A stretch of 51,252 bases of DNA. Source: an uncultured Paraprevotella sp. Lineage in GTDB: Bacteria > Bacteroidota > Bacteroidia > Bacteroidales > Bacteroidaceae. Below are positions 6,391 through 37,777 of the stretch, piece by piece; within the stretch, counting starts at the first letter, position 1, and each line of letters opens with the position of its first letter. The DNA lies in the NCBI GenBank assembly GCA_944321975.1, contig CALUNJ010000004.1, positions 1 to 51,252 on the forward strand. The letters are read 5' to 3'. The notes below the pieces were generated by a model. The model worked only from the letters and a program-made list of their open reading frames with translations, was not told where the DNA came from and ran no database searches. The position numbers and the translations under genes were made by a program.

Positions 6391-6879
6391 TTAAATATTT
6401 GAAAGTTTCAATTTAATCTTATATATGAATAAAAGGTAACGGCGTATCGGAAGCAATTTTCTCCAAGCCCTCACCCTGCGGCGTAGCCTCTCATCGGAAG
6501 CCGCTATCGTGCGCCCAAAATGACAATAATGTGTGACGATCCCCACCACATCGGACTTCCGGCAATGCTCCGTGCCGCAAATGTTCCCGTCTCCCATCAA
6601 CGTGACACGATCGCCTTCAAGCGCGATGATGCGATGCAACACATACACGCCCTTTGAAATTTCGGCCAACACGGCATCACCGACTTGCAGATTGCCGGCT
6701 TGCGCCAATTGCACCTTGTCCCGGCAATGCTCAAGGAAAGGCCGCATGCTGTAACCTTTCACGTTAATGGTTGCCGTGTGTCCAGTCCGCAAGGCTTCTT
6801 TCACTTGCCCCAATAAAACGGCATTGGGCACTTCCATTTTGCGAATTGCCATTCCGGCTTCTCTTGCTTTTGCTTTCAT
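6391..6879 (-). CDS. S24/S26 family peptidase, soluble signal-peptidase-like
   Basis: A 162-residue protein. GYSMRPFLE gives the nucleophilic serine (S44), VGDAVLAEI follows as box C, YVLHRIIALEGD carries a histidine (H82) at the position that is lysine in classical signal peptidase I, and MGDGN (96-99) resembles the closing GD box. This is the Ser/His arrangement of the SipW/Sec11-type branch. Unlike true signal peptidases there is no N-terminal membrane anchor; instead the C-terminus is strongly basic and partly hydrophobic (LRRRVRAWRKLLPIRRYLLFIYK). The start overlaps the kinase stop by 4 bases (ATGA); the longer open frame upstream is a shadow of the kinase gene. Probably cleaves a peptide inside the cell, by context a leader; the substrate is unknown. 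Confidence 0.75.
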   Translation of the reverse strand: MKAKAREAGMAIRKMEVPNAVLLGQVKEALRTGHTATINVKGYSMRPFLEHCRDKVQLAQAGNLQVGDAVLAEISKGVYVLHRIIALEGDRVTLMGDGNICGTEHCRKSDVVGIVTHYCHFGRTIAASDERLRRRVRAWRKLLPIRRYLLFIYKIKLKLSNI

Positions 6880-32176: not shown

Positions 32177-33431
32177 TCAACAGGTATTTGAGGTCATATA
32201 AGGCCTGCAGGCGTTGAATCTCATGCAAAGCCTTGGCCTGACGCGCTTGATTCTCCGCCGTCACTTCCCGCAACATCTCCGTCACAGTCAGCTCCCCCTC
32301 CGCCACTTTGGCTTCAGCGGCCCGCCGGATGTTTACACGCAGCTGTATCAGTTCGTCATCGCGCTTCATCAGCGTGTCCAGCCGTTCCACCGCACGGCGA
32401 CGCCCCATCGCTTCCATGCGGTTTTCCAATCGGAAGGCCGTTTCCTGCACATGAATATCCTGCCGTCCCGCATCCAGCAGCTGTTTGTCGTTTTTCCGGG
32501 TGTAAAGGCTCCCGATGTTCCAGCTTAGCCGCACTCCGGCCACATAATAAGGTTCGAACCCTCCCTTGAGCATATTCAAGCCTGGATCACCATATGCGCC
32601 TTGTGCAAAAAGACTCAAACGAGGCATCAGCCGGGAGTCCAAGGTTTTTTCCTGCACGTCCAAGTGCCTGCGTCGCGAGGCATAAAGCGACAATTCCGGA
32701 CGGCGGAGCTCCCCCGACGGCCTTTCCGCATCGGCCGGACGCGCAAGCCGTTCGCCGTCGGCATATTCCTGGCCTGTGAGCAGCCCCAAAGTCTCCAGAT
32801 AGGCCTTTCGGCTCACGCTCAATTCCGCTTCCGCCTGTCGGGCGTTCAATTGTTCCACACGCACGGCATCCAAATCCGCGCCGGTTGCCAGCCCCTGTTC
32901 CATACAGGCTTCCACTTGGGCGTGGTTCCGGGCCAGCTGTTCCTGCAACAACCCGTTTTGTACCAACTGCGCATCGAGCAACAGGATGCCAAAATAAAGT
33001 TGGTTCACCCGCTCTCGAAGCGCATAAAGATTCACCTCGAGCTGTTCCCGTTGCACATCAGCCTGCACGGAGGCTTCCTTCTTCCGTTGGCGGATAGCCC
33101 CGCCGTCCCATAACGTCTGATTCAATTCCACGACTGCCTGATACTGATCCTTGTCCAACCCGAATTCTATTCCAGGTATCGTAAAGGGCATCTTCGTCAC
33201 GTCTGATTGATAAGACACCTTCCCGGAAATGCCCAATTGGGGCAAATAACCTTTTGAGGCGTTGGCCAAAGCAAACTCTCTGCTACGCTCAATCAGGTCG
33301 AACTGTTTCACCAAGGGGTAGTTCTCCCTTGCCGCATGCCAACATGCTTCCAAGGTCAGCTGGGCAAACGCGGCCTGCGCGGCACAACATGCCGCGACCC
33401 ACACCGCCACTCTTCTTATGGTCTTTTTCAT
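32169..33431 (-). CDS. TolC family outer-membrane efflux protein
   Basis: A 420-residue exported protein (signal peptide ending in QAAFAQ). Two outer-membrane efflux repeats are visible: LTLEACWHAARENYPLVKQ at the N-terminus, a strand region with YQAVVELNQTLWDGGAIR, helical tunnel segments, and a second half with PYYVAGVRLSWNIGSLYTRKND followed by long helices to the C-terminus. It forms the outer-membrane duct of the adjacent ABC exporter. It overlaps tetR by 4 bases upstream and the adaptor gene downstream. Confidence 0.9.
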   Translation of the reverse strand: MKKTIRRVAVWVAACCAAQAAFAQLTLEACWHAARENYPLVKQFDLIERSREFALANASKGYLPQLGISGKVSYQSDVTKMPFTIPGIEFGLDKDQYQAVVELNQTLWDGGAIRQRKKEASVQADVQREQLEVNLYALRERVNQLYFGILLLDAQLVQNGLLQEQLARNHAQVEACMEQGLATGADLDAVRVEQLNARQAEAELSVSRKAYLETLGLLTGQEYADGERLARPADAERPSGELRRPELSLYASRRRHLDVQEKTLDSRLMPRLSLFAQGAYGDPGLNMLKGGFEPYYVAGVRLSWNIGSLYTRKNDKQLLDAGRQDIHVQETAFRLENRMEAMGRRRAVERLDTLMKRDDELIQLRVNIRRAAEAKVAEGELTVTEMLREVTAENQARQAKALHEIQRLQALYDLKYLLND

Positions 33432-34042
33432 TTTCTCAATCGGCTTAATACCACTTCTATGTTTTCCGCCCTTCGCTGGGCCACGAACTGCCGCACGTCC
33501 TCATCATCCATGCCAAAAGCCTCCTTGGCAATCGGCAAGCCCACAAATGTCATGACATTTAGCGAGGCGATAGAAAACATCAGGTCCGACGTGCGGAGCG
33601 AACGGATCTCCCCCCGCCTCGCAGCCGCTTCCAGTTGTTTTCCCACCTCGCTGATCGTGGCCTGCAAAGGGGCGACCAACAAAGGCAAATACACTTCCCT
33701 CCGCTCTTTATTCAGATGTATTTCACGCAAGATAAACATCGGCAAACAGGGATTGGCCGCCACAAAGTCAAAATGTGCGCCCGCCAATGCCGCCACCTGT
33801 TCCATAAAAGGACGCCCGCTGTCAAAGGTTGCCGCCAAAGATTCAGCCAAAAGCCTCACCTTCTCCCGGAAAATCCGCTCGAACAATTTTTCCTTCGTGC
33901 GGAAATAATAATGCAGCATGGCATGCGTCACGCCGGCCGCCCGGGCTATTTCCGTGGTTTTGGCCAACGCAAATCCCTTTTCCAGAAATTCGGCTTCTGC
34001 GGCTTCCAATATGGCTTGTTCCGTATGATCACCTCTCCCCAT
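33428..34042 (-). CDS. TetR/AcrR family transcriptional regulator of the efflux operon
   Basis: A 204-residue repressor-type protein. The helix-turn-helix (about 5-50) reads TEQAILEAAEAEFLEKGFALAKTTEIARAAGVTHAMLHYYFRTKE, the classical TetR pattern; the remaining helices form a ligand-binding domain with no recognisable ligand motif. The start MGRGDHTEQ (34042) was chosen because residues before it derive from an A/T-rich leader. It is first in the operon and overlaps tolC, so it probably represses its own operon. A 5-bp inverted repeat with 3-base spacer (ACAAC-TTC-GTTGT, 34043-34055) abuts the start and a looser TAAC/GTTA pair follows upstream; either could be part of its operator. Confidence 0.85.
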   Translation of the reverse strand: MGRGDHTEQAILEAAEAEFLEKGFALAKTTEIARAAGVTHAMLHYYFRTKEKLFERIFREKVRLLAESLAATFDSGRPFMEQVAALAGAHFDFVAANPCLPMFILREIHLNKERREVYLPLLVAPLQATISEVGKQLEAAARRGEIRSLRTSDLMFSIASLNVMTFVGLPIAKEAFGMDDEDVRQFVAQRRAENIEVVLSRLRK

Positions 34043-34105
34043 ACAACTTCGTTGTTTAACCGTATTGTTAGTTTTGACAAAGAAAAAAATTATTTTCAAG
34101 AAATC

Positions 34106-34113
34106 CAAATATA
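34106..34113 (-). promoter_or_regulatory. -7 box of the tetR-tolC-ABC operon
   Basis: Reads TATATTTG on the minus strand (TAnnTTTG). A leader of ~60 bases precedes the tetR ATG and holds the inverted repeats mentioned under that gene. Confidence 0.5.
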
Positions 34114-34222
34114 ATCCTCAAGCCGTATCGCCCTTTAATCTTTTTTATCAGAAAATCATCCTGACGGCCACGGAATCGGGAAAAACGGGCTAAAAATTTG
34201 AATAAAAAGCGGCATCCGGGTA

Positions 34223-34252
34223 TTGGAAAATCCAAAAGTTTCTTTAATTTCG
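34223..34252 (+). promoter_or_regulatory. Promoter of the structured leader and BIG2 protein gene
   Basis: TTG (34223-34225) and TAATTTCG (34245-34252; one mismatch to TAnnTTTG) are 19 bases apart. Transcription near 34258 would give a leader of about 350 bases, which contains the short ORF and the multi-stem structure. A second, weaker box TAACTTGA lies at 34392. Confidence 0.45.
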
Positions 34253-34302
34253 CAATATTAACCCACAAAAGGAAGGAGGGAAAAAACAAGAAAGAAACAA
34301 AA

Positions 34303-34413
34303 ATGCGCAGGGACGGTTACCCGAAGAAAGGGCATCCCCCACCGAGATTGGACCCAAAGTCGTCAAATCCGAAAAGCGCGTTTCCATCGCATAACTTGAA
34401 TACAGACATATAG
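34303..34413 (+). CDS. Short proline-rich leader ORF (36 codons), tentative
   Basis: Begins MRRDGYPKKGHPPPRLDPKS and has 36 residues with seven prolines including a PPP run, a motif that slows ribosomes. The stop TAG is immediately followed by the hairpin AGAGC/GCTCT and then the structured leader. A purine-rich stretch (GGAAGGAGGG) lies 22 bases before the ATG, rather far for a ribosome site. It could be a real regulatory uORF or a chance frame. Confidence 0.3.
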   Translation: MRRDGYPKKGHPPPRLDPKSSNPKSAFPSHNLNTDI

Positions 34414-34571
34414 AGAGCTTTTAGCTCTTGTTCTCTCTCATGTGAATACCGCCAATTTTCGCTACACGAGAACAAGTGAGCCGGAAGTTCACGCCACAGG
34501 GCGTGAACTATTTCGTTGCTTGCCGTGTAGAAGGTCACTTGGCGGTAACCCACATGAGAGGCAAGTAACGA
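34414..34571 (+). promoter_or_regulatory. Elaborate structured leader RNA or DNA element with alternative stems
   Basis: Complementary segments: AGAGC/GCTCT hairpin (34414-34428); CTTGTTCTC (34427-34435) with GAGAACAAG (34468-34476); CTCTCATGTG (34435-34444) with CACATGAGAG (34551-34560); TACCGCCAA (34447-34455) with TTGGCGGTA (34539-34547); CTACACG (34462-34468) with CGTGTAG (34524-34530); GTTCACGCC-ACAG-GGCGTGAAC (34487-34508); TCGTTGCTTGCC (34513-34524) with GGCAAGTAACGA (34560-34571, one G-U); also CAAGTGA (34473-34479) with TCACTTG (34535-34541). One long hairpin or two side hairpins with kissing loops are possible; some helices conflict. It ends 36 bases before the ATG of the BIG2 protein. 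Whether it acts as RNA or as DNA is not known. Confidence 0.6.
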
Positions 34572-34606
34572 GAATGGTTGACGCCTTTTTCATAAAGCCA
34601 AATGAT

Positions 34607-37600
34607 ATGAACTTTCAGATTAGAAAAACATGTAAGATATTGTTTATCCTCGGAACACTACTTTGTATTCCGACAATGGCACATGCCATATATAACATCG
34701 TAGAAAAAACCATATATACGACTGTTGGAAGTACATTCATAATAAGCCCGTGGGGTGACGGAAAAGACAAAGCACCTGGTTCCATTTGTGCTTCCACGAA
34801 TGTATATGAGGTAAGTGATTATTCTGCTATTAGTAGCAACGTGTTCAGGAAAATAACCACACGCTATCCGAGTTTTAACAACCAATATGAAGATGGATAT
34901 TATTGCACATATAAAGCAGAAGCATTAAAAGCTGGAACCCATATCATTTATACCAACTTCTCCAGTTATAAGAAAGAAGGTAAAACTCTCACTAATTATA
35001 CTATACAAGTAAATTACCACGTCGTTGTCACCGAAAAGCCGGAAGTAACCTCTATCAGCATTCCCGGCAACCTCACTTTGACGCTTGGAAACAGCTACAC
35101 TTTTTCACCCGTCATCCTTGAAGAAGGAGCCAGCACCACATTGTCGTGGAGCAGCAACAACCCCTCCTGTGTGTCCGTAACCAGCGGGGGCGGGATCAAG
35201 GCATTGTCGGTGGGTTCCGCCGTCATCAAATGCACGGCGAGCAACGGCGTTTCCGCCCAATGCGTCGTGACGGTGAATCCGGTTTTCGCCACCGGAATCT
35301 CTTTGACCCCCCGCGAACTCACCCTGGAAAAGGGGGACAAGCAAGTGCTGACGGCCACGGTTACTCCCGCCAACGCCACCATCAGGCAAGTGGCATGGAA
35401 AAGTTCCGATTCCAACGTGGCTTTAGTGGGCACGGACGGAACAGTCATGGGCGTCGGAGTCGGCCAAGCCATGGTCACGGCAACGACCACAGACGGAAGC
35501 AACCTTTCGGCCACATGCATGATAGAAGTGAAACCCGTAAACGTTCCGGCCACATCCATCAAGCTAAGCCAAACGGAACTTTCGCTCACGAGCGGAGACA
35601 CGCGGCAACTTTTGGCCACGGTATACCCCTCGGACGTGACAAACGGAAGTGTGGCATGGAGCGCCAGCAACGACTGCGTTTCCGTGGATGAATACGGGAA
35701 CCTCACGGCACGGAAAGCCGGCACGGCAGTCGTCACGGCCACCACGATGGACGGCACGAACCTGTCGGCCTCATGCCACGTGACCGTCAGCGAAAAGGAC
35801 GTGTCGGCCTTCGACAACATTGTCTACTTCGAACCGCACACCGTGGTGGCCGGACAGCGCGCCACCCTACCGCTCCTGATGAACAACCAGGCCGACATCA
35901 CCGCCATACAGTTCGACCTCACACTGCCCCAAGGCGTTGAAATCGCGAAGAAAGCAGACGGCCAAACCTATGATGTCACCTTCAACGAAGCAGGACGCAC
36001 GGATGAATCCAGCCACAGCATCAGTTGCGCATTGCAAGACAACGGCTCTGTCAGGGTGCTGTGCTATTCCACCGCCCTCGCCGTGTTCGACGGGAACCAA
36101 GGCGCAATCCTCGACCTCGCTTTGGATGTGGCGGACCATGCGGAAACCGGAACACACCGCATTTCCATAGACAATATCGTCCTCACGGACAAGAACGAGA
36201 ACAAATACGCGTTGGCACACTACTCGTCCGTGCTGAAAGTGGTGACCACCACTCCCGGAGATCCCAATGCCGACGGAGTCACAGATGTGGCCGACATCGT
36301 GGCCATAGCCCATTACATCTTGGGAAGCCCCACGGACACGTTCGTGCAGGAAGCGGCCGACTTGAACGGGGATGGCGCCATCGACGTGGCCGACATCGTG
36401 GCCGTAGCCCACAAGATACTGGGCAGCACCACCCGTCGCCTGATGAAAAGGAGCGCAATGACGCAGGAAACGGCCGCCCCGAATTTCGAAATCACGCCCT
36501 TTGCCATGCAGCCCGGAGAAAAATCGAACACGGTCACCCTCGACCTGTACAATCCGGGAAGGGAAATCACGGCTTTCCAGCTTGACCTCGAACTGCCGGA
36601 AGGACTGTCCGTAGACTTAAACCGGCGCGGGACCGCATACAACCTGACCTTCAACACCGATGCGAACCGCACGGATGCCAGCTACCACACCCTGAGTTCC
36701 GCACTCCTGGACAACGGGGACATCCGCATCTTGTGTTATTCCACCGCACTCGAAATCTTTTGGGGAGAAGAAGGGGCGCTGGTCAACATCCCGCTCACCG
36801 CTGACGAAGACATGGCTCCGGGAATCTATGAATTCGGCTTAAAGAACATCGTGCTGACCCAAACCGATGAAACCAAAATCACACCGTGTGACTATCGGGG
36901 AACCATCGTCATCGGAAACGGGGGCCGGATCGGAGCCGTCAAGCTGCACGGCACCTACCGGGAAAGCACGCTCAAGGCATTCTCCGAGGCTTTCGCGTCG
37001 AACGAGCGCATCACCAGCATCGACCTGACCGAAGCCACGGTCCAAAACGAAACGAAAGAGCGGCTCACCACCGGAAATGCCAACACGCTGCTATACACCA
37101 AGGAAGGACAACCGCTGGGGAACAGCCAGAATGTAGTCACGGGCGATTTCTGCGAACACCTGGTACTGGCAGACCTCCTGCCTTTCCACGCCCCGAAATC
37201 GTTTGTGGCGGGCGAGGCGAGCTACAACCGCGAGGTCCCGGAGGCCGGATGGTACTCCGTGTGCCTGCCGTTTGCCCCGACACTGGACGCAGGACTGATT
37301 CTGGAGAAATTCACAGGAGCGGACCTGGAGGCAAGGACCGTGAGCTTCGACAGGGAAACCGACCCGCAAAGCTACAAGCCATACATCCTCAAGGCCAACG
37401 GGAAGGACATTTCACTATATGCCTCAAACGTCGAAATAGCCGCCACGCCCGACCTCATCAGCGACGGGATATTCATCGGGACGCTCAAGGGAATCCAGGC
37501 TCCGGAAATAGACGGTTTCTACGCGCTAAGCCCTGACGGCACCGGATTTTCCATAGCCTCAGAAACGGCTTATGCCCCGGCATTCCGCGCCGTGATAAAC

Positions 37601-37777
37601 GCCCAGGGGCACATCCGGCTGTCGATTATCCACCATGGGCAGGCCACCGGCATCGCCCCCGCAACGGTTTCCGGCAATGCCGAAGAAGGAGCCATCTACA
37701 ACCTGCAAGGCATCCAGATGGAAAAACCCGGAAAAGGCATCTTCATCCGGAACGGGAAAAAATTCATTCAAAAATAA
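34607..37777 (+). CDS. Large surface protein with BIG2, cohesin-like and dockerin domains
   Basis: A 1056-residue exported protein (signal peptide ending in AHA, residue 27). After a unique N-terminal ~145 residues come three BIG2 Ig-like domains (~146-225, 226-310, 313-396). Then a cohesin-like domain (~402-548), a dockerin-like pair of calcium loops (DPNADGVTDVADIVAIAHYIL and DLNGDGAIDVADIVAVAHKIL, 552-606), and a second copy of the cohesin-like domain (~627-775) clearly duplicated from the first. The end (IYNLQGIQMEKPGKGIFIRNGKKFI) is the C-terminal tail common in secreted Bacteroidales proteins and may be a T9SS-type sorting signal; the T9SS plug gene at 2.8 kb agrees. The start 34607 is set by the signal peptide; the frame runs open upstream through the structured leader. 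The 5' part of the gene is visibly A/T-richer than the rest. Confidence 0.8.
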   Translation: MNFQIRKTCKILFILGTLLCIPTMAHAIYNIVEKTIYTTVGSTFIISPWGDGKDKAPGSICASTNVYEVSDYSAISSNVFRKITTRYPSFNNQYEDGYYCTYKAEALKAGTHIIYTNFSSYKKEGKTLTNYTIQVNYHVVVTEKPEVTSISIPGNLTLTLGNSYTFSPVILEEGASTTLSWSSNNPSCVSVTSGGGIKALSVGSAVIKCTASNGVSAQCVVTVNPVFATGISLTPRELTLEKGDKQVLTATVTPANATIRQVAWKSSDSNVALVGTDGTVMGVGVGQAMVTATTTDGSNLSATCMIEVKPVNVPATSIKLSQTELSLTSGDTRQLLATVYPSDVTNGSVAWSASNDCVSVDEYGNLTARKAGTAVVTATTMDGTNLSASCHVTVSEKDVSAFDNIVYFEPHTVVAGQRATLPLLMNNQADITAIQFDLTLPQGVEIAKKADGQTYDVTFNEAGRTDESSHSISCALQDNGSVRVLCYSTALAVFDGNQGAILDLALDVADHAETGTHRISIDNIVLTDKNENKYALAHYSSVLKVVTTTPGDPNADGVTDVADIVAIAHYILGSPTDTFVQEAADLNGDGAIDVADIVAVAHKILGSTTRRLMKRSAMTQETAAPNFEITPFAMQPGEKSNTVTLDLYNPGREITAFQLDLELPEGLSVDLNRRGTAYNLTFNTDANRTDASYHTLSSALLDNGDIRILCYSTALEIFWGEEGALVNIPLTADEDMAPGIYEFGLKNIVLTQTDETKITPCDYRGTIVIGNGGRIGAVKLHGTYRESTLKAFSEAFASNERITSIDLTEATVQNETKERLTTGNANTLLYTKEGQPLGNSQNVVTGDFCEHLVLADLLPFHAPKSFVAGEASYNREVPEAGWYSVCLPFAPTLDAGLILEKFTGADLEARTVSFDRETDPQSYKPYILKANGKDISLYASNVEIAATPDLISDGIFIGTLKGIQAPEIDGFYALSPDGTGFSIASETAYAPAFRAVINAQGHIRLSIIHHGQATGIAPATVSGNAEEGAIYNLQGIQMEKPGKGIFIRNGKKFIQK

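Follow-up and report, generated by a model that had tools for sequence, protein, structure and literature searches.

The window, a stretch of 51,252 nucleotides from an uncultured Paraprevotella sp., carries a gene whose product combines three Big_2 stretches with a dockerin type I domain and begins with a signal-peptide-like sequence; a further in-frame ATG is present at 34574. Directly 5' of this gene, as the preliminary description had placed it, lies a highly structured element (Table 1), and a gene for a TetR-type regulator (33431-34108, minus strand, Pfam TetR_N) is divergent from this leader. Comparison of the whole window with Rfam 15 at the gathering thresholds returned only a tRNA, a tRNA-Pro elsewhere in the window was the sole ARAGORN match, and the search of 34200-34800 at E <= 5 returned U12 and mir-4774 only, both far below gathering.

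A repeat search recovered the complementary segments at the positions claimed for them in the preliminary description. The outer segments are complementary at 9/9 positions (34427-34435 with 34468-34476) and at 11/12 (34513-34524 with 34560-34571), while the segments that they enclose match across the centre: CTCTCATGTG (34435-34444) with 34551-34560 at 10/10, TACCGCCAA (34447-34455) with 34539-34547 at 9/9, and CTACACG (34462-34468) with 34524-34530 at 7/7. The central hairpin (34486-34495 with 34500-34509) is perfect over 10/10. The two halves of the element are correctly regarded as inverted copies of one loop held by different stems. The folding energy of the strand 34400-34610 is -80 kcal/mol, compared with -51.3 +/- 4.6 kcal/mol in dinucleotide shuffles (n=200, z -6.2), and 0/200 shuffles were equally stable. 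Beyond these segments we found a small 5' hairpin at 34415-34427, a helix between 34506-34514 and 34572-34579 that encloses hairpin 2 (RNAalifold), and an arm (34572-34585), followed by a U-run, that can claim 34500-34509 in place of the central hairpin. The last of these, i.e. E:E' versus E':T' with the U-run, is the alternative in which two helices share a strand, and it was absent from the preliminary description.

Table 1. Features of the leader element and its downstream gene (window coordinates).
Feature	Position	Strand	Evidence
Leader RNA element, whole	34407-34591	+	
P0, extra upstream hairpin GAAA-..-UUUC	34370-34385	+	by eye in upstream sequences; low confidence
P1, small 5' hairpin GAGC-UUUUA-GCUC	34415-34427	+	sequence; compensated in two homologues
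A, hairpin 1 5' arm	34427-34435	+	repeat search, RNAalifold; 97.7% of cells paired
A', hairpin 1 3' arm	34468-34476	+	repeat search, RNAalifold, family covariation
B, hairpin 1 inner 5' strand, partner B'	34436-34443	+	covariation, swap test
B', hairpin 2 inner 3' strand	34552-34559	+	covariation, swap test
Hairpin 1 apical stem, GAA 34444-34446 / UUC 34458-34460	34444-34460	+	swap test, covariation
C, hairpin 1 loop ACCGCCAA, partner C'	34448-34455	+	covariation; complementarity in distant relatives
C', hairpin 2 loop UUGGCGGU	34539-34546	+	covariation; distant relatives
D, hairpin 1 inner 3' strand, partner D'	34462-34467	+	covariation, swap test
D', hairpin 2 inner 5' strand	34525-34530	+	covariation, swap test
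Hairpin 2 apical stem, GGU 34533-34535 / ACC 34548-34550	34533-34550	+	swap test
E, central hairpin 5' arm (putative antiterminator arm)	34486-34495	+	99.3% paired with E'
E', contested strand, partner E or T'	34500-34509	+	swap test, covariation
P5 5' arm, extends E' into terminator-type stem	34506-34514	+	RNAalifold, family covariation
F, hairpin 2 5' arm as kept in the family (12 nt, 34513-34524, in the window copy)	34518-34523	+	95.9% of cells paired
F', hairpin 2 3' arm	34561-34566	+	repeat search, covariation
T', terminator-type stem 3' arm	34572-34585	+	covariation, swap test
U-run 3' of T'	34586-34590	+	T4 or longer there in 124/134 loci
Downstream gene: three Big_2 stretches, dockerin type I domain	34607-37777	+	Pfam

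Homologues and covariation of the helices

A DNA search of 61 genomes found the element in 16 (the genome of the window included), all from the same taxonomic family as the window, and in none of the 24 genomes of other families among them. For wider searches we built a covariance model (R1) from 18 clean aligned copies, with the two-hairpin fold and with B:B', C:C' and D:D' not imposed; L018, which is cut by a contig end, L024, a poor match, and L019, which has no second loop, were left out. In a draw of 399 genomes from the window's family, R1 matched 217 (21/30 genera); in draws from the order and, at the stricter cut-off of E <= 1e-5, from the phylum it matched 65 of 198 and 18 of 296, respectively, the window's own genome being counted in each draw. 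Because only a handful of top candidates per genome are scored in these searches, the copy numbers are minimum values. In the own genome two copies are strong (152.7 and 146.6 bits) and one is weaker (39.5 bits); the latter, L082 (G000:C120:5904-6085), lies near a contig end and has a different loop pair, UCUGGACA / GUCCAGA. Thirteen genomes searched singly gave 1-10 matches each, at no more than seven distinct places per genome among the scored candidates, and some of these matches fall on the opposite strand of an element that is itself a match. Two genomes of the order draw (G052 and G570) reached 13 matches each, the number of candidates scored in that draw and hence a minimum, several of them less than 500 bases from contig ends.

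A pattern scan of named genomes gave at least 80 loci; of the 80 listed, 74 hold an R1 match at E <= 0.01 and six do not. The named carriers among the matches listed are Prevotella-type and other Bacteroidales, and they include Prevotella communis, Paraprevotella clara, Xylanibacter caecicola and Palleniella intestinalis. R1 also matches records labelled Ignavibacteria, Kapaibacterium, Lentisphaeria and Deltaproteobacteria (47-58 bits), most of which are metagenome bins that may be misbinned. Two contigs labelled Bacillota (138 and 160 bits) look like strays. The complete genome of Desulfonema magnum contains two matches (66.6 and 58.2 bits), and two Acido-Lenti-1 RNAs (L206:5407-5452 and 6576-6621, plus strand) lie near an element copy there. 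The element matched none of 50,697 phage records and one of 72,556 plasmid records, and the start of the BIG2 protein, used as a query against viral contigs, found no relative. The Rfam search of 15 further element-bearing loci (7 at gathering, 8 at E <= 0.5) returned nothing at the element. Leaders from the window's family seem, by eye, to share a P0-like hairpin some 35 nt further upstream (GGAA-AAGCG-UUCC, CAGAA-UAGCG-UUUCUG and similar forms); none was noticed in the other families.

The pairings were followed in a family alignment of 75 homologues (74 distinct), made with MAFFT without structure. Over the 57 pairs, which fall into ten helices, standard pairing is kept in 92.4% of cells; both sides are changed in 485 cells versus 170 in shuffles, and sliding the partners by one column reduces pairing to 43-47%. 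For these 57 pairs, all five measures were reached by 0/500 shuffles. The loop-loop helix C:C', which the preliminary description had raised as a possible kissing interaction, is paired in 99.5% of cells, shows compensatory changes and is maintained in distant relatives. The weakest helices are B:B' and D:D', the former with 8/8 pairs changed on both sides and 83.7% of cells paired, the latter, which varies in length, with 6/6 pairs and 71%. The apical stem of hairpin 1 is paired in 87.4% of cells.

A second view of the same helices is given by a swap test, in which a strand from each of 95 loci was scored against its own partner or that of another locus; its z-values come from permutations that ignore relatedness and hence are not probabilities. 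Own partners of B:B' gave 8.8 bp versus 5.3 when swapped and were strictly best in 52/95 loci, with corresponding values of 8.4 versus 5.7 (25/95) for D:D' and 8.5 versus 6.6 (14/95) for C:C'. The mismatched combinations B:D', D:B', B:D and B':D' stayed within 0.4 score units of the swaps. The apical stems reached z 6.5 (hairpin 1) and z 13.5 (hairpin 2, with GGC:GCC and GAUUC:GAAUC forms in relatives), and two control pairings of apical sides gave z -4.3 and z 3.1, the latter for the 5' side of hairpin 1 with the 3' side of hairpin 2, whose windows overlap C:C'. P1 gave no swap-test signal in the 95 loci; it is compensated in two homologues (GGAC-UUAUA-GUCC and GAAC-UUCAC-GUUC). One continuous long hairpin formed by pairing of the outer stems across the two hairpins was rejected, the signal being weak both for A:F' (12.0 own, 11.5 swapped) and for A':F (14.6 own, 12.6 swapped).

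A more distant set comprised nine named records and nine phylum-wide loci, of which 12/18 could be parsed and 6/18 were left unscored, their loop motif being unrecognised. In the 12 parsed loci the own score of B:B' was 20.8 against 11.8 +/- 1.1 in permutations, and that of D:D' was 22.0 against 14.0 +/- 1.1. Among relatives the loop sequence is exchanged together with that of its partner (ACCGCCAA, AUCGCCAA, ACGACCAA, UCUGGUAA and CUGGACA). The element comprises two closed hairpins with complementary loops whose pairing is backed by covariation. In 60 diverged copies (L082 from the own genome and 59 loci from other families) only 8/60 unpaired columns are at least 85% identical, a cut-off of our choice; four of them belong to the U-run, two to the T' arm, and one (34426) is actually part of P1.

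The contested strand and the downstream genes

The two helices that involve E' share a strand and cannot coexist, and the U-run follows directly 3' of T'. In the swap test (95 loci) E:E' reached z 11.7, E':T' z 8.2, and E' extended by P5 with T' z 11.2. Over the 74 distinct sequences T' is paired with 34500-34514 in 96.0% of cells, and the complete terminator-type state, counted with F and hairpin 2's apical stem, is paired in 95.3%. None of 500 shuffles attained its covariation score; of the five measures taken, two were matched by shuffles, one in 3/500 and the other in 1/500. Most of the covariation of the terminator-type stem sits in P5, since the five lowest pairs, which belong to E':T' alone, include only three double-change cells, and one of these pairs is broken in 17/74 sequences. 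There are thus mutually exclusive helices on one strand, one of which ends in a U-run, with covariation thin in the lowest five pairs of E':T'; the choice between E and T' is ordinary transcription-attenuator logic. Another candidate for the main terminator stem, GGCGGUAACC (34541-34550) with GGUU..CGCC, reached only z 3.5, as against 8.2 for E':T' and 11.2 with P5, and was rejected.

In the window copy the terminator fold (-64.4 kcal/mol) and the better pseudoknot-free two-hairpin fold (-63.7 kcal/mol) are less than 1 kcal/mol apart, and the other two-hairpin fold has -57.5 kcal/mol. The long hairpin made of B, C and D has -78.4 kcal/mol, retains E:E' and contains no terminator. Because this fold is 14 kcal/mol better and keeps E:E', the energy model suggests that locking of the hairpins to each other would favour read-through.

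The position of the element with respect to genes was assessed in 134 non-redundant loci, 74 from the window's family and 60 others (59 of other families and L082). A same-strand ORF starts between -5 and 70 nt from the end of the element in 104/134 loci, which gives it the placement of a same-strand 5' leader there, and no ORF starts in this interval in 30/134. Within the window's family an ORF starts at -5 to 40 nt in 64/74 loci, and outside it within 40 nt in 13/60; these counts, like that of the 104 leaders, have no chance control. The preliminary description had named coding in frame with the downstream protein as a finding that would refute its reading. This does not hold for the family, where an in-frame stop separates the start of the element from the gene in 101/104 leaders; the three without such a stop are L096, L126 and the window's own copy, whose frame is open through the leader. 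We argue from the sequences that the element family is probably non-coding, because lengths vary and pairs are compensated.

The covariance search proposed in the preliminary description yielded homologues that retain the pairings and lie mostly 5' of genes for exported proteins. In a crude export test, 59/73 leader genes of at least 150 aa pass, compared with 125/342 control ORFs drawn from the 80 loci of the pattern scan, and a lipobox-like word occurs in 18/104 downstream ORFs and in 25/342 controls. A different type of product, a small protein with a HIG motif near its start, is encoded by 15/104 downstream ORFs, with four more relatives recognised by eye; Pfam has no family for the 60-aa piece with this motif, which by our reading of the sequence is a putative HTH/XRE-like protein. 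In L003/L081, L016, L022 and L023 the leader lies 5' of a gene for a small HTH-like protein, and in L003 and L016 we read the ORF just upstream as mfd (transcription-repair coupling factor). The site at the small HTH gene, adjoining mfd in L003 and L016, is possibly the ancestral place of the element. In L080 (G511) the leader lies 5' of a gene whose start resembles that of an Rpn-type nuclease/transposase. The downstream genes share no common pathway, and so no ligand is suggested by them.

Upstream of the element, the word TAnnTTTG, which we take to be the Bacteroides promoter consensus, occurs within 120 nt in 45/133 loci, compared with a mean of 7 and a maximum of 14 in 200 mononucleotide shuffles, and with 7/132 in downstream stretches. 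The exact word is missing upstream in 88/133 loci, and it is found on the reverse strand in 19/133. The window copy has only a near match, as judged by eye.

Interpretation and comparison with known systems

We propose, with a probability of roughly 70%, that the segment 34407-34591 acts in cis as a leader RNA, belongs to a family for which we found no earlier description, and controls the next gene by transcription attenuation. According to this proposal, passage of the polymerase would first let A:A' close hairpin 1 with its loop C and let E pair with E' in the central hairpin; hairpin 2 (F:F', with loop C') would form next, whereupon C:C', B:B' and D:D' may lock hairpins 1 and 2 together. 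If T' displaced E from E', the resulting long stem, enclosing hairpin 2 and ending in the U-run, would stop transcription 16 nt 5' of the start codon, whereas if E:E' were maintained, the downstream gene would be read. Termination at this stem, an influence of the locked core on the choice and the direction of that influence are steps that we infer. As almost no unpaired base is conserved, we favour a signal to which the fold itself responds (Mg2+, temperature, the pace of the polymerase or a shape-binding protein) over one that enters a metabolite pocket.

How the core is organised is a separate question. The preliminary description treated two hairpins and one long hairpin as mutually exclusive, but the helices of the first set (A:A', F:F' and the apical stems) and those of the second (B:B', C:C', D:D') occupy nearly disjoint, abutting bases, so that the pairing logic alone gives no exclusivity. 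Helix spacing could be parsed in 98/134 loci (36 were dropped, their loop motif being unrecognised): A and B lie at most 2 nt apart in 78/98, and the overlap between D and A' amounts to 0-3 nt in 83/98. The windows used for F caught P5, and the gaps F-D' and B'-F' were therefore left out of these results. In the structure string of the family every base takes part in one pair only. This favours coexistence, because alternative helices usually share bases, as E:E' and E':T' indeed do, while the core helix sets hardly share any. It is possible that A:A' and F:F' form the base, B:B' and D:D' the middle, followed by the apical stems and then the paired loops. We tentatively suggest, while regarding it as more doubtful than probable, that all core helices coexist as side-by-side hairpins, in a natural RNA resembling a paranemic crossover, with stacked four-way junctions, and that several bacterial phyla use this fold to switch genes. 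Overlaps of 1-3 bases, which are common at core junctions, count against it.

A bistable core, as envisaged in the preliminary description, would flip between the two-hairpin fold and a long hairpin with B:B', C:C' and D:D' around E:E'; it is a serious contender that we would still rate somewhat below even odds. Both helix sets covary, and the long hairpin is the best fold according to the free-energy model. Moreover, by ordinary geometry a straight B-C-D duplex of about 26 bp would be too long to bridge the closed loop of a hairpin, and hence incompatible with A:A' closing the same loop, which also weighs against coexistence. On the other hand, sets that abut with almost no nucleotides in common, as seen in the 98 parsed loci, are not what such flipping would lead one to expect, and the covarying apical stems GAA:UUC and GGU:ACC would be useless in the internal loops of the long hairpin.

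The remaining explanations concern the function of the element as a whole. The double-hairpin core could be the aptamer of a metabolite riboswitch, in agreement with an expression platform of the riboswitch kind and with the wide distribution; we consider this unlikely, as unpaired bases that line a ligand pocket normally stay invariant, and here only two such columns exist besides the U-run and T', one of which is actually P1. In addition, the loop sequences are exchanged while their complementarity stays, and the downstream genes lack a common pathway. The defined 5' region, the U-run and the 30 loci with no nearby ORF start would also suit a stand-alone small RNA that has its own terminator and merely adjoins genes, but such an RNA would not be expected to have a same-strand ORF start within 40 nt in most loci of the window's family, 5' of unrelated genes, and a constitutive terminator would not need the competition between E:E' and the terminator arm, so we judge this improbable. 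Least credible, in our opinion, is a DNA element with inverted hairpins for a transposase or recombinase (REPIN/BIME-, MITE- or attC-like). The near-palindromic sequence, the reverse strand of which scores 20-47 bits in many loci, the dispersed copies with their wide taxonomic range, and the two genomes with numerous matches, several near contig ends, point in this direction. Against it stand the few distinct places per genome in the 13 genomes searched singly, the near absence from phage and plasmid records, the divergence of the copies (blastn links the two strong copies of the own genome only at E 0.2 and 5), and the fixed orientation 5' of start codons with an orientation-specific T' arm and U-run. 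A role at the DNA level, suggested in the preliminary description, keeps a small probability but is not needed to explain the element.

Several published collections bear on the novelty of the element. Flavo-1 RNA (RF01705) and other Bacteroidetes motifs were described by Weinberg et al. 2010 (PMC2864571), and Flavo-1 matches are found in sense or antisense orientation (PMC9723704), according to the excerpts available of both papers. Like Flavo-1, our element is a dispersed structured element in Bacteroidota; eight loci that carry it match no such family at E <= 0.5, and RF01705 itself had no match in the own genome, nor in the control genomes. Fremin & Bhatt 2021 (PMC8040213) reported 3161 candidate structured RNAs, palindromic Bacteroidetes candidates among them, with 508 upstream candidates, 15 of which lie directly upstream of HTH_XRE genes. 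These candidates, compared here by their description in the text, may include parts of the element, and the portions of the text available describe no such architecture. The small RNAs FopS and GibS (PMC11697453), with a single-stranded 5' part and a terminator, have a different architecture in the sections at hand. The element is not described in the accessible parts of PMC11697453, PMC8040213, PMC2864571, PMC7366714, PMC10168427, PMC10376919 or PMC9723704, and a term search of PMC11109978 returned nothing on it. Our best reading is thus that of a transcription-attenuating leader with an unusual core, from a family new to Rfam and to the literature that we found. If this is true, an unseen layer of control would act on surface and exported proteins in gut bacteria, and a core with almost no fixed unpaired base would make it possible to ask whether a transcription switch can be set by RNA shape alone and not by a ligand pocket.

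Attenuating leaders include the expression platforms of riboswitches, the T-box and protein-responsive antiterminators. The element resembles them in that E' is contested by the upstream E and by the downstream T' with its U-run, before the start codon. It differs from them in its upstream domain, which consists of two hairpins complementary to each other and nearly devoid of conserved unpaired bases, in its lack of a coherent set of genes and in its lack of a matching Rfam family. Two hairpins in cis joined loop to loop recall the kissing-loop L2-L3 of the purine riboswitch. In contrast to that system, the inner strands of the element (B:B' and D:D') also pair across the hairpins and vary freely, and the loop pairing, mostly 8-9 bp by sequence, can be replaced by another sequence.

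To our knowledge, the paranemic-crossover (PX) fold is known only from designed nucleic acids. If all its helices coexist, the element would share with PX RNA the strands that pair alternately within and between hairpins, and a fold that is otherwise designed would then have a natural counterpart; PX RNAs are products of design, whereas the PX connectivity of the element is only predicted. In the excerpts available, PX RNA is presented as a designed object of nanotechnology (Afonin, Cieply, Leontis 2008, as cited in PMC10376919), and the PX triangle of CASP15 is listed as 'Non natural' (PMC10168427).
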